Shown: piece after piece, positions 55,953-61,508 of the stretch
How the letters are laid out: each line of letters begins with the position of its first letter
Numbering within the stretch: position 1 is the first letter of the stretch
NCBI GenBank assembly: GCA_021014945.1
Contig: MU266345.1
Location: 99,714 to 163,713 of the forward strand
Source: Leucogyrophana mollusca
Lineage: Eukaryota > Basidiomycota > Agaricomycetes > Boletales
Reading direction: 5' to 3'
DNA: 64,000 nt
Program-made: the position numbers and the translations under genes
The notes under the pieces: model-generated
The model's database searches: none
Told to the model about the DNA's origin: nothing
Seen by the model: the letters and a program-made list of their open reading frames with translations, nothing else

Positions 55953-58134
<2,182 letters not shown>

Positions 58135-58739
58135 TTGCTTGGCTAGGATGCGCACAGTATTGTATATAGCTGATTGTTTGCTTTGGCATGTCTATACAGT
58201 GTGATGTATTTGCTGTTATTCTTGATGCGCTGATCCGAGCAATCGCATGGTTGGAGAGCTTGAAATTTGCAGTGCCATAAATCCCCTTGACGTTGTTCAA
58301 TTGTATATTTCCCTTGACATTCTCAGTTGCGGTCGAGGCTTTGTACAGGCTTTAGCTTCAGTGGGTGTTCGACGTATAGCGCGGCACAGCCTCGATGCAC
58401 CTTCTACCGAACAGCGAACTTTCTGGAGCCCCACGTTGGGTCTATTTGTGAACTGGATAGACAATGAACCTGACCCCGAGTCCGCCCGTGCTTACCATGC
58501 GGGGAAAAGCAATGAAGGTACGCGCCGATCGCAAAATCTTTCACAGCGTCTCTGCATGTTATCAGAACTCCTTACCACAGCATTTTCACAGCATTTTATG
58601 ATGACTTCAGGACTCAAGAGCGAGTCAGAGTCCTTGTTACCTCTTCTAATATCATCACCAGGAAAGCATCACGCCGTCAGTGGACATATCGTTTGAGTAT
58701 GTCTGCTCTGAAGGTGCCGATATTCGTTCCCTCTGAACT
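58135..58739. other. Intergenic or 5' exons of the micro-exon gene
   Basis: About 600 bp upstream of the micro-exon gene. Possible additional 5' exons exist: an ATG at 58464 gives MNLTPSPPVLTMRGKAMK followed by a good donor (aag|gtacgc at 58518), and candidate acceptors occur near 58590, 58610 and 58662. I could not connect them to the array without ambiguity. Confidence 0.35.
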
Positions 58740-61508
58740 ATGGCAATTGGAACTCATTTTGAATCTGCCCAGGCCAACACGGGCAAACGTGCCGAAGCCA
58801 AGAACGACAGTGGACCATCCCCTCCCAAGGCGCGAGCGTCTCTGATTGTTCCACGAACCCGCGTTGACTTAGAATCCGTTCAGGCTACGAAATCGCCAAA
58901 GGCGCCGCTAGACAAGCAGTATCATGACATTGACGTAGGTCCCAATGTTCCTTTTCGAGGATCATGGCTCCCAGTCTCAGTGTTGAAACAATGTTACGTA
59001 GGCCCCGAAAGTGCCAAAGACTTTGGAGGCCAGGGATGTTGCTACACCACGTAACTCGGAGGTTTGAGCTCTCTTTTCTAAAATTGAATCGGCACTCAAT
59101 CGACTCCTCTCAGACCAAGAAGCCCACGGGGAAATCAGAGGAAAAAACTGATGCGCCTATGCCTACTCCAAAGGTGCGAGTATCTCGCGCACCAAGCAGC
59201 CGTTTCGTCATCTTATTCCGCCCTTTCACCTACACAGGCCAAGAAAGCACCCAAGATAGCGATACCTACCAGTGAAACCGGTGACGCGGATGTGTCTCCA
59301 GGGGCTCCAAAGATGAAGGTGGGTGTGCTCCTTTCTTAATTGAGTCATGGAATATGTTCTGACCCTTCACGTAGGCTGCGCAGCCAAATCAGACGAAAGA
59401 TGACCATGATTCGCCCGCTTCCAAGGTGCGATCTTCGTTTATCAAGGAGTGTTCCAATTCAGTGCTGATATGCCACTCGCACCCAGTCGACGAAACCAGT
59501 CAAAGGTAAAAATGGCAAGGCGTCCACTCCAAAGGTGCGACTTTTATTTTGTTTCTGGCAGTCGTGACAATCTCACACAATTGCCTCAACATAGGTCCCG
59601 AAAGCACCATCAGTAAAGGAGACCAAGAGTGGTGGCGACTCGTCCCCTTCAAAGGTACGTGGAACCGTTGGTTAAAAGTATCAAGGTGCCGGTCTTTACA
59701 TGCTTTCCTCCAGGCTGAAAAGTTGTCAAAAGTACCCGAGGATAAAACAAATGGTGGTACCCCTCCAAAAGTACAGTCGTTTGCTGACCTCGACGAGGAG
59801 TCCTTGCTCATATCGTATCGCTTCTCCCAGGCAGAGGAACTGTCGAAGGCGGAACGAAAGAAGCCTTCCGGCCCCTCATCTTCGAAGGTATTGGTCTGCG
59901 CTCTTCTTGACAGAAGCTCGCTTCCGACGTTCTTCCACTCAGGCTGCGAAACCATCAAAGCCACTAGATGGCGATAATCCCTCAGGAGTGTCCCTTCCAG
60001 ATGTACGAGTTTCTCGAACCTTGGTATTCAGTGCTGACATACCATTGCCTTGTGCTCACGACACACAGTTAAAGGTGTCGCCTCCATCAGAGGGCGATAA
60101 CTGCGCGGTCACAATTCCTTCAAAGGTTTGTAGTCCTATTAGTTATGGACCTTTTGTCGGAACTAATTTTGATACGGGACTCGAAGACACCACCCGAATC
60201 AGCTCCAGATAAGCTGACAGATGTAAGGGTCTTCGTTCTTTTATCAACCACCGGCGGTAGACATTTAAATATTCCACTCAGGACCAAGAATCGTCAAAGG
60301 CACTGCAGGTTTATAACGGACCCGAAATTACTCCTCATCCAAAGGTCCGATCCATCACCATTCTCGAGATGGTGACAATTAGTGACTTGTCTTGCCCTCA
60401 CATCACCACAGGCGCCGGAAACCAAAAACCACGCCGGCACCGCGCTAGTCGTTGCCATTGAAGTCCTAGATACCACCCGAAAACTAGCCCCACACTCCGC
60501 TGTACAGGCGCTTTTATCAGTTTGTCACGGGATCCTGGTTCTCGTTCAAGTACGTGAGGTCGGAGTATCTTGAATGTATCCCATTCTTATTGGACGCGAT
60601 GGCAGGGCGCGATCAAGAATCAAGATGACTTTGTGGATGTTGCACAGCAGTGTCACGACATAGGAGTGATGGTCTGGCGGAGAACCTCCAAGCTATCTGG
60701 TGGAAATATTGATCCTGACGTCGCAGAGGTTCTCCGTGCGTTCACAAGGTCGTTTTGGGTCTCCACAACTCGTTGCTCGGTTTCGCTTAACTAACATGTC
60801 TAACAGAGCCGTTGGCAATGTCAAAAATAGCATCGATGCCGCGATAAAGGAGAACGAGGGGCGTATTTTTCCCGTTAGGATGTTTTTTGCTTCGGTAGAC
60901 CACAAGAAGATAGCTGCCTGGAAACACGACCTCGAGCGCCGCCGACAGGACTTCATTGCGAGTGCCCTTGTTCGCTCTAGTTACATTGATGTTAACGATT
61001 TTAACCACCAACCATGACAGATCGAGCTCAGTTTACTCGCTCTCATGAAGAGGAACCAAATCATTACTGTTATCAAGCCGACAGCGAAGGCAGTTCAGAA
61101 CAGGAAGATGATTACAAATGGGCGAGTACCTCACCTACCGGCATGTGTGTAGCTAATTGCTAATGAATTATGCAGAAAGGAAGCCGGAAATCCTGGAAGT
61201 CCAGCGACGGCTAAGGGCAGCCCCTGTCCCGAAGGTAAAGGCAAGGGCAAAGGCAAAGATAAAGCTACGGGTATGAAGTATCCCAGTGGCAACGAGGGCA
61301 AGCCATCCCGAGTCCAGCCCTCGGACTCGAAAAAAGGACAGCCTTCGGGGAGTAATGAAAGTGCGCACAAGGGCAAGCACCGGCCGAGTGTATGTCGCCC
61401 ACCCTTTGTCTTGATATGATTGAAACTAAACATATAATAAAGGATACACCACCCCCTCCATTGCAGGCGGCATCGACCAGCAAAGGATGGGCACGCAAGG
61501 TCAAGTAG
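58740..61508 (+). CDS. Micro-exon-array protein with MLKL-N-terminal-like helical domain
   Basis: The function is unknown. The N-terminal half is a Lys/Ser/Pro-rich linker encoded by a series of tiny exons listed in the next entry. From 60412 it continues TALVVAIEVLDTTRKLAPHS, VQALLSVCHGILVLVQNQDD, FVDVAQQCHDIGVMVWRRTS, VKNSIDAAIKENEGRIFPVR and KIAAWKHDLERRRQDF. This is a helical bundle that resembles the MLKL-NTD-like domain common in Agaricomycete proteins (family assignment by recall). Exons 60412-60549, 60618-60748 and 60807 onward join in frame. The tail (61021-61508) is rich in Lys, Gly and Ser and ends STSKGWARKVK. Two splicing solutions exist for the last introns (see findings). The ATG at 58740 is the simplest start; further 5' exons are possible. 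Confidence 0.65.
58773..60344 (+). repeat. Array of symmetric phase-0 micro-exons
   Basis: Exons, all multiples of three and in one frame: 58773-58829 (57 nt), 58884-58934 (51), 59002-59061 (60), 59114-59173 (60), 59238-59318 (81), 59375-59425 (51), 59487-59534 (48), 59595-59654 (60), 59714-59770 (57), 59831-59887 (57), 59943-60002 (60), 60069-60125 (57), 60187-60222 (36) and 60282-60344 (63). Introns are 52-67 nt. The first candidate intron (58830-58883) begins gc rather than gt and is open, so it may be coding. Typical products: AEKLSKVPEDKTNGGTPPK and AEELSKAERKKPSGPSSSK; most exons begin with Ala and end with Ser/Pro-Lys. Introns 59426-59486 and 60003-60068 share attcagtgctga(t/c)at(g/a)cca, so exon and intron appear to have been duplicated together. 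Confidence 0.75.

Follow-up and report, generated by a model that had tools for sequence, protein, structure and literature searches.

In the wood-decay fungus Leucogyrophana mollusca (Boletales), a forward-strand gene carries 14 consecutive small symmetric exons, a genuine and unusual single-gene variation on known kinds. It lies near the end of the window, the 64,000-nucleotide stretch of contig MU266345.1 (assembly GCA_021014945.1) that was analyzed. The explanation we favor, with a probability of roughly 0.6, is that the gene is an ATPase-less derived relative of this fungus's NLR-type genes, in which the linker would have been multiplied into 14 exon units and would now work as an adjustable tether.

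The gene was spliced by hand before the public protein BV22DRAFT_155255 (P0001, Leucogyrophana mollusca, 667 aa) was discovered. This protein, which was compared as protein sequence and without its exon table, includes the residues encoded by each of the 14 exons, one after another in gene order. Hand splicing gave array exons of 57, 51, 60, 60, 81, 51, 48, 60, 57, 57, 60, 57, 36, and 63 nt, all 14 of which are multiples of three flanked by phase-0 introns, and the 15 introns between 58714 and 60411 are 52-67 nt long. The splicing confirmed the layout described in the initial annotation, namely fourteen exons of 36-81 nt in multiples of three with phase-0 introns of 52-67 nt, the public protein agrees with it in residues, and its statement that any subset of exons could be removed in frame follows from the same lengths and phases (14/14). 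The whole gene model contains 20 introns and an intact frame (Table 1). The helical part had been placed at 60,412-60,957; this part is indeed helix-coding, but the gene continues to about 61,508 with one more helix exon and a tail.

Table 1. Coding features of the array gene, in window positions.
Feature	Position	Strand	Remarks
Likely first coding exon (MSALK, 15 nt, phase-0 end)	58699..58713	+	start choice inferred
Mini-exon array, 14 symmetric phase-0 exons	58773..60344	+	266 residues, net charge +12
Array exons 1-4	58773-58829, 58884-58934, 59002-59061, 59114-59173	+	
Array exons 5-8	59238-59318, 59375-59425, 59487-59534, 59595-59654	+	
Array exons 9-12	59714-59770, 59831-59887, 59943-60002, 60069-60125	+	
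Array exons 13-14	60187-60222, 60282-60344	+	
Helix-coding exon 1, 138 nt, phase 0-0	60412..60549	+	homologous to paralogues' exon 2 (162-174 nt)
Helix-coding exon 2, 143 nt	60606..60748	+	counterpart is paralogues' exon 3
Helix-coding exon 3	60807..60957	+	end implied by public protein; GC donor gcgagt
Helix-coding exon 4, last	61021..61121	+	ATPase comes next in paralogues
C-terminal tail, Lys/Gly/Ser-rich	61176..61508	+	92 residues, net charge +12, TAG stop included
Tail exons (n = 2)	61176-61389, 61443-61508	+	

ATG 58247 is the start used in the public model, where the MSALK residues are internal. We consider ATG 58699 (MSALK) the likelier start because 12 of the 22 paralogous copies open with a 27-nt phase-0 exon; in the other 10, the template's 27-nt exon did not fit. 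Against this choice stands a helix at residues 99-137 of BV22DRAFT_155255, with block pLDDT values of up to 84 in the structure model. The public N-terminal extension (58247-58698), which begins 113 bases past the upstream gene's stop, may belong to a 5' untranslated region; its coding score under a codon-bias model was -0.031 per nt, lower than that of the array (-0.011). No signal peptide was recognized by eye in the MSALK start. At the other end of the gene, our first model closed helix-coding exon 3 at 60969, and the end implied by the public protein, 60957, was favored by an ungapped alignment with the paralogues across the junction.

GC donors at 58830, 60958, and 61122 (gcgcga, gcgagt, and gcgagt, the second as implied by BV22DRAFT_155255) account for an apparent 3 of 20 introns, seemingly many for one gene. 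The upstream neighbor, at about 57325-58134, encodes a U2AF large-subunit-like splicing factor. Its scanned piece alone scored 211.9 bits against TIGR01642, for which the full-length cut-off is 310.3, and RRM_1 also matched. The presence of a splicing-factor gene beside a micro-exon gene is probably a coincidence.

The array was compared with chance by scanning for chains, that is, runs of short phase-0 exons scored with splice matrices trained on 34 introns, none of them the array's own (10 of the 22 paralogous copies supplied 29, and the part of the gene further down supplied 5). The scan covered both strands of the window and of 20 other loci (227,472 bp), with at most four chains kept per strand. 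The two top-scoring chains of 165 were both within the array (25.4 with 4 exons and 19.1 with 7 exons); the next chain scored 12.2, and the top chain in 200 dinucleotide shuffles of the array region scored 8.4. The scan recovered at most 11 of the 14 array exons, at least two of them with a shifted acceptor (59020 for 59002 and 60300 for 60282). The codon-bias model, trained on long ORFs, was uninformative because it was slightly negative for the array and the helical exons (-0.007 per nt) alike. The 14-exon array is real and stands above shuffled sequence.

The array is the only one of its sequence type found in the 32.3-Mb genome (545 contigs) by DNA, unit-pattern, and protein searches, which detect arrays of similar sequence and would let arrays of unrelated exons escape. 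The unit-start pattern had four matches in the genome, one of them inside the array, and a reversed control pattern had one. Two of the three matches outside the array were inspected by eye over 600 bases each, and no array was seen.

The linker had been described as rich in Lys, Ser, and Pro, and its composition (K 16.5%, P 15.4%, S 11.7%) bears this out. With splice-site bases removed, the mean similarity among the exons lay at z = 9.9 above 100 codon shuffles, and the mutual similarity of the array protein interiors exceeded 200 of 200 shuffles. No pair of exons is outstanding: the top pair scored 3.5, and the best pairs of the shuffled sets averaged -0.74 with a maximum of 9.0. The typical unit, A-x-K-x-[PS]-K ... 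[S/T]P-x-K, spans ~19 residues. An [S/T]P pair is present in 12 of the 14 exons, where 6.7 would be expected and 0.5% of shuffles reach 12; the total count of [S/T]P was not significant (12 vs 8.3, reached in 9.7% of shuffles). The initial annotation had offered mutual similarity of the exons as a check on its proposal of growth by duplication, and the similarity found (z = 9.9) fits growth by duplication of exon-sized units. Multiplication of an exon unit is well supported.

The introns speak less clearly for their own duplication. Whole-intron similarity was equaled in 1 of 200 dinucleotide shuffles. Sequence shared by two introns had been taken as a sign that exons and introns were copied together; the match in question, which pairs 17/19 nt of introns 6 and 11, is genuine (1 of 200 dinucleotide shuffles scored as high), yet it overlies the presumed branch site, and the case for co-duplication of introns is weak. 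The 5' halves of the introns are marginally alike (7 of 200 shuffles were as high), and their best local match was reached by 40 of 200. Comparison with 16 non-redundant of the 34 control introns gave 0.020 for array-array, -0.028 for array-control, and 0.015 for control-control pairs (permutation 0.001). This comparison was discounted because most of the controls come from the NLR genes and are homologous introns, and because the best array pair was equaled locally by a pair of controls (13). A purpose-built gene finder was also dropped, as it over- or under-spliced; a later version yielded 4 control introns, 2 of them of usable length. Duplication of whole exon-plus-intron units is weakly supported.

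The four helix exons of the array gene are clearly homologous to the N-terminal domain that NLR-type (NB-ARC/TPR) genes of this genome encode. At E up to 10, the helical part matched at least 41 further genome segments (45 rows less 4 of its own), with a best non-self E of 2.1e-6 over the whole genome and a best tblastn E per locus of 2e-5 to 4e-14 against 20 fetched loci. The paralogue set consisted of 22 gene copies within these loci, and identity between the bundle of the array gene and the paralogues was 27-34%. When the paralogues' exon 3 is located with a single template (L024), it measures 143 nt in all 22 copies, as in the array gene, and in 21 of them no end had to be shifted; the phase-0 junction between exons 2 and 3 is common to both. 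The order in the paralogues is a 27-nt exon, an intron, exon 2 (a Lys/Ser/Pro stretch, then the first helices), exon 3, two exons, and the ATPase; it is based on two copies read base by base and one copy spliced through, with TPR repeats seen in the latter. The loci L022-L041 make up an expanded NB-ARC/TPR family with at least 22 helical-domain copies, many on short contigs.

All 28 public relatives that were scanned matched NB-ARC, and all 28 matched TPR_12 (E <= 1). A database search with one relative returned 34 proteins at E <= 0.01; L. mollusca contributed 28 and Hygrophoropsis aurantiaca 6, and the array protein was absent from these 34. When the array protein served as query of the protein database, it found only itself at E <= 0.001; the profile search of that database scored the 7990 candidates sharing most words, which were probably of low complexity. 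The array protein formed a very long branch outside the others in a domain tree (3.66 vs a median of 0.077), and because of this branch its age is not readable from the tree.

The array occupies the position of the receptors' intron 1, which in the receptors is followed by a short Lys/Ser/Pro linker, and the beginning of exon 15 corresponds to a point some eight codons inside receptor exon 2. The opening residues of the units (AxKxPK-like) are similar to those that open receptor exon 2 (e.g. AKTSPKSS), with an identity of 0.48 vs 0.36, reached in 0 of 2000 codon shuffles; the 14 unit starts resemble one another, so they do not amount to 14 independent tests. Given this resemblance and the location at intron 1, it would be a segment of the receptor linker that was multiplied. 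The ATPase and TPR parts are absent from the array protein, and a Lys/Gly-rich tail replaces the ATPase of the paralogues. In P0018 from Hygrophoropsis aurantiaca, the N-terminus repeats the first helix segment ahead of a Lys-rich stretch (MVILTNTISALDTAKELVPLD ... MVVLTNAISALDMAKELVPLD), possibly through an exon duplication in a receptor at the same place as the array.

The helical bundle had been likened to the MLKL N-terminal domain. At full length, the array protein matched no Pfam family at E <= 1, and its domain alone matched only Flu_M1_C, SLATT_5, and Tfb2_C, all far below the cut-offs (a weak SLATT_5 match turned up in another scan too); neither the full-length protein nor the domain matched MLKL_N. 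The receptor relatives scored up to 25.1 bits against MLKL_N (cut-off 27) over positions 3-124 of 142. MLKL_N was matched at E <= 1 by 4 of 9 family members, and the relative P0002 at full length scored 17.4 bits. The comparison probably holds by way of the paralogues, but the array protein itself has no MLKL_N match, and the proposal that the array domain is MLKL-like through its paralogues (basidiomycete 'BaMLKL') is partly supported by these profile scores.

An AlphaFold model, the alignment of which took in 28 of the 34 relatives, placed helices at residues 404-422, 426-445, 449-473, 480-508, and 523-573 (BV22DRAFT_155255 numbering). Mean pLDDT in blocks of 10 residues was 61-79 across the helical region, except for 37 at 511-520, and residues 138-403, the array arm, had no secondary structure in the model. 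The 50 rows listed from each of Foldseek and VIA-align were all-helical proteins, among them helical bundles and BAR domains; MLKL was absent among the matches listed, which excludes nothing. A PDB-sequence profile search with the domain gave 12 matches at E <= 10, the best of which (0.001) was a designed helical repeat protein, and MLKL was not among the 12. A structure of P0002 predicted without an alignment had a mean pLDDT of 41 and was left unused. Inspection of the Lys/Gly/Ser-rich tail by eye revealed no amyloid-type pairing motif.

The gene structure, the similarity of the exons, the homology of bundle and receptors, and the place of the array where the receptors have intron 1 were observed directly; the mechanism of duplication, the tether function, the pairing with receptors, and any control by splicing are inferred. 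The bundle (BaMLKL by way of the paralogues) would have been retained and the ATPase lost, and the receptors' short Lys/Ser/Pro linker downstream of intron 1 would have become 14 exon units of ~19 residues each. The product would be a helical bundle on a long disordered basic arm, with a second basic tail behind. The bundle may be a membrane-acting or adaptor module able to pair with related receptors, and the basic arm, most units of which contain an [S/T]P pair, may be an adjustable phosphorylatable tether. Its reach and charge would be set by the accumulated number of exons and, if splicing is used, by the exons included. Since the branch of the bundle is very long, the function of the bundle may have changed. 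An arm of ~270 residues before the bundle is also awkward for an MLKL-type killer because the N-terminal helix of MLKL acts on the membrane.

The explanations that follow are not exclusive of the favored one. A neutral ratchet, to which we give an even chance, shares its anatomy and conflicts with its tuning: the arm need only be long, basic, and disordered, symmetric phase-0 copies are tolerated, and all exons would be constitutive, with no isoform of consequence. Copying one phase-0 unit gives symmetry automatically, and the units are strongly diverged and vary in length (36-81 nt, no outstanding pair). Yet the frame is intact across 14 exons, and the [S/T]P pair in 12 of 14 exons suggests some constraint on content.

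It is doubtful that introns were gained instead, a continuous Lys/Ser/Pro-rich repeat exon having been split by insertions at the AAG|G site of each repeat. Many junctions do read AAG|gt...ag|GC, the context of a typical proto-splice site, and the 5' halves of the introns are barely alike; however, the receptor paralogues already have an intron here and only a short linker, and there is some likeness between whole introns (equaled by 1 of 200 shuffles). A combinatorial splicing device, in which many combinations of skipped exons would give a family of arm lengths as the initial annotation proposed, deserves the same doubt. The frame would be kept by any subset of exons, and truffle NLR genes are reported, in the papers considered below, to have alternatively spliced microexons. 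However, fungal introns this short are usually under intron definition, which favors intron retention over exon skipping, so mostly constitutive inclusion is expected. A splicing-programmable tether, in which 14 frame-neutral units duplicated from the receptor linker would let the fungus tune the arm of a cell-death-type bundle in length, charge, and phosphorylation load, is graded a little lower still, as improbable. Least probable is a decaying gene of receptor type that lost its ATPase and is drifting: the long branch and the lack of any database match at E <= 0.001 other than the protein itself would suit decay, but the model has 20 introns with an intact frame and the public model yields nearly the same protein.

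If the favored explanation, an ATPase-less relative with a multiplied linker, is true, a receptor linker in an immune-type gene of a fungus became an array of exon cassettes that can expand, which would be a PEVK-like solution within an organism having tiny introns. The array gene is a clean test case for combinatorial exon skipping in short-intron fungi. Should every exon prove constitutive, the gene would remain a well-marked exon multiplication, the likely source segment of which is identifiable in the same genome.

The exact layout was not found in the open-access literature that was searched. The claim of the initial annotation that no fungal gene with this layout had been described may hold for the details, although the literature does contain a fungal NLR family with many alternatively spliced microexons. 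Basidiomycete MLKL_NTD-like (BaMLKL) domains are described in NLRs and in single-domain proteins, with hundreds apart from NLRs (PMC9815663). As in that account, the array protein has a helical-bundle domain, which its relatives carry at the N-terminus of NB-ARC/TPR proteins; it differs in the 14-exon basic arm before the domain, the basic tail behind, and a sequence of its own without a Pfam match. The near-cut-off MLKL_N matches of the relatives agree with the class described there. The Pfam scan found no NACHT or ankyrin domain in the array protein, nor the combination of an NB-ARC/NACHT ATPase with a repeat domain by which fungal NLRs are recognized.

The NACHT-ANK (nank) genes of Tuber melanosporum reportedly contain codon-sized, alternatively spliced microexons, as Iotti et al. 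are said to have described in 2012. The microexons of truffle nank genes are given as 3 bp, and alternative splicing is reported to diversify the sensor domains (PMC4986451, PMC3689799, PMC10197012). These genes form a fungal NLR-type family with tens of frame-keeping microexons, as those reports describe them, whereas the exons of the array gene are 36-81 nt, lie in a linker, and are not accompanied by an ATPase. On these accounts the truffle genes are the closest fungal precedent.

Schistosome micro-exon genes had been named as the precedent. Their exons are 6-81 bp and mostly multiples of three, their introns range from 100 to almost 5000 bp, and their products are secreted, with a signal peptide (PMC10526429). 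The array exons fall within that size range and are multiples of three, so the likeness holds for exon size; introns and secretion differ. With introns of 51-67 nt and no homology, the array gene is ruled out as a member of the schistosome class by the intron lengths given in that account, and the truffle NACHT-ANK genes and the PEVK segment of titin are nearer.

The exons of titin PEVK are symmetric. The human gene has 113 annotated PEVK exons, the number of which shifts by duplication and loss, and alternative splicing alters the length of the segment (PMC6469411). Titin is a muscle protein with no homology to the array gene, and the comparison is one of how the two may work. Like the array, PEVK as described there consists of tandem short exons for a Pro/Lys-rich flexible segment, and it is the closest analogue in design.
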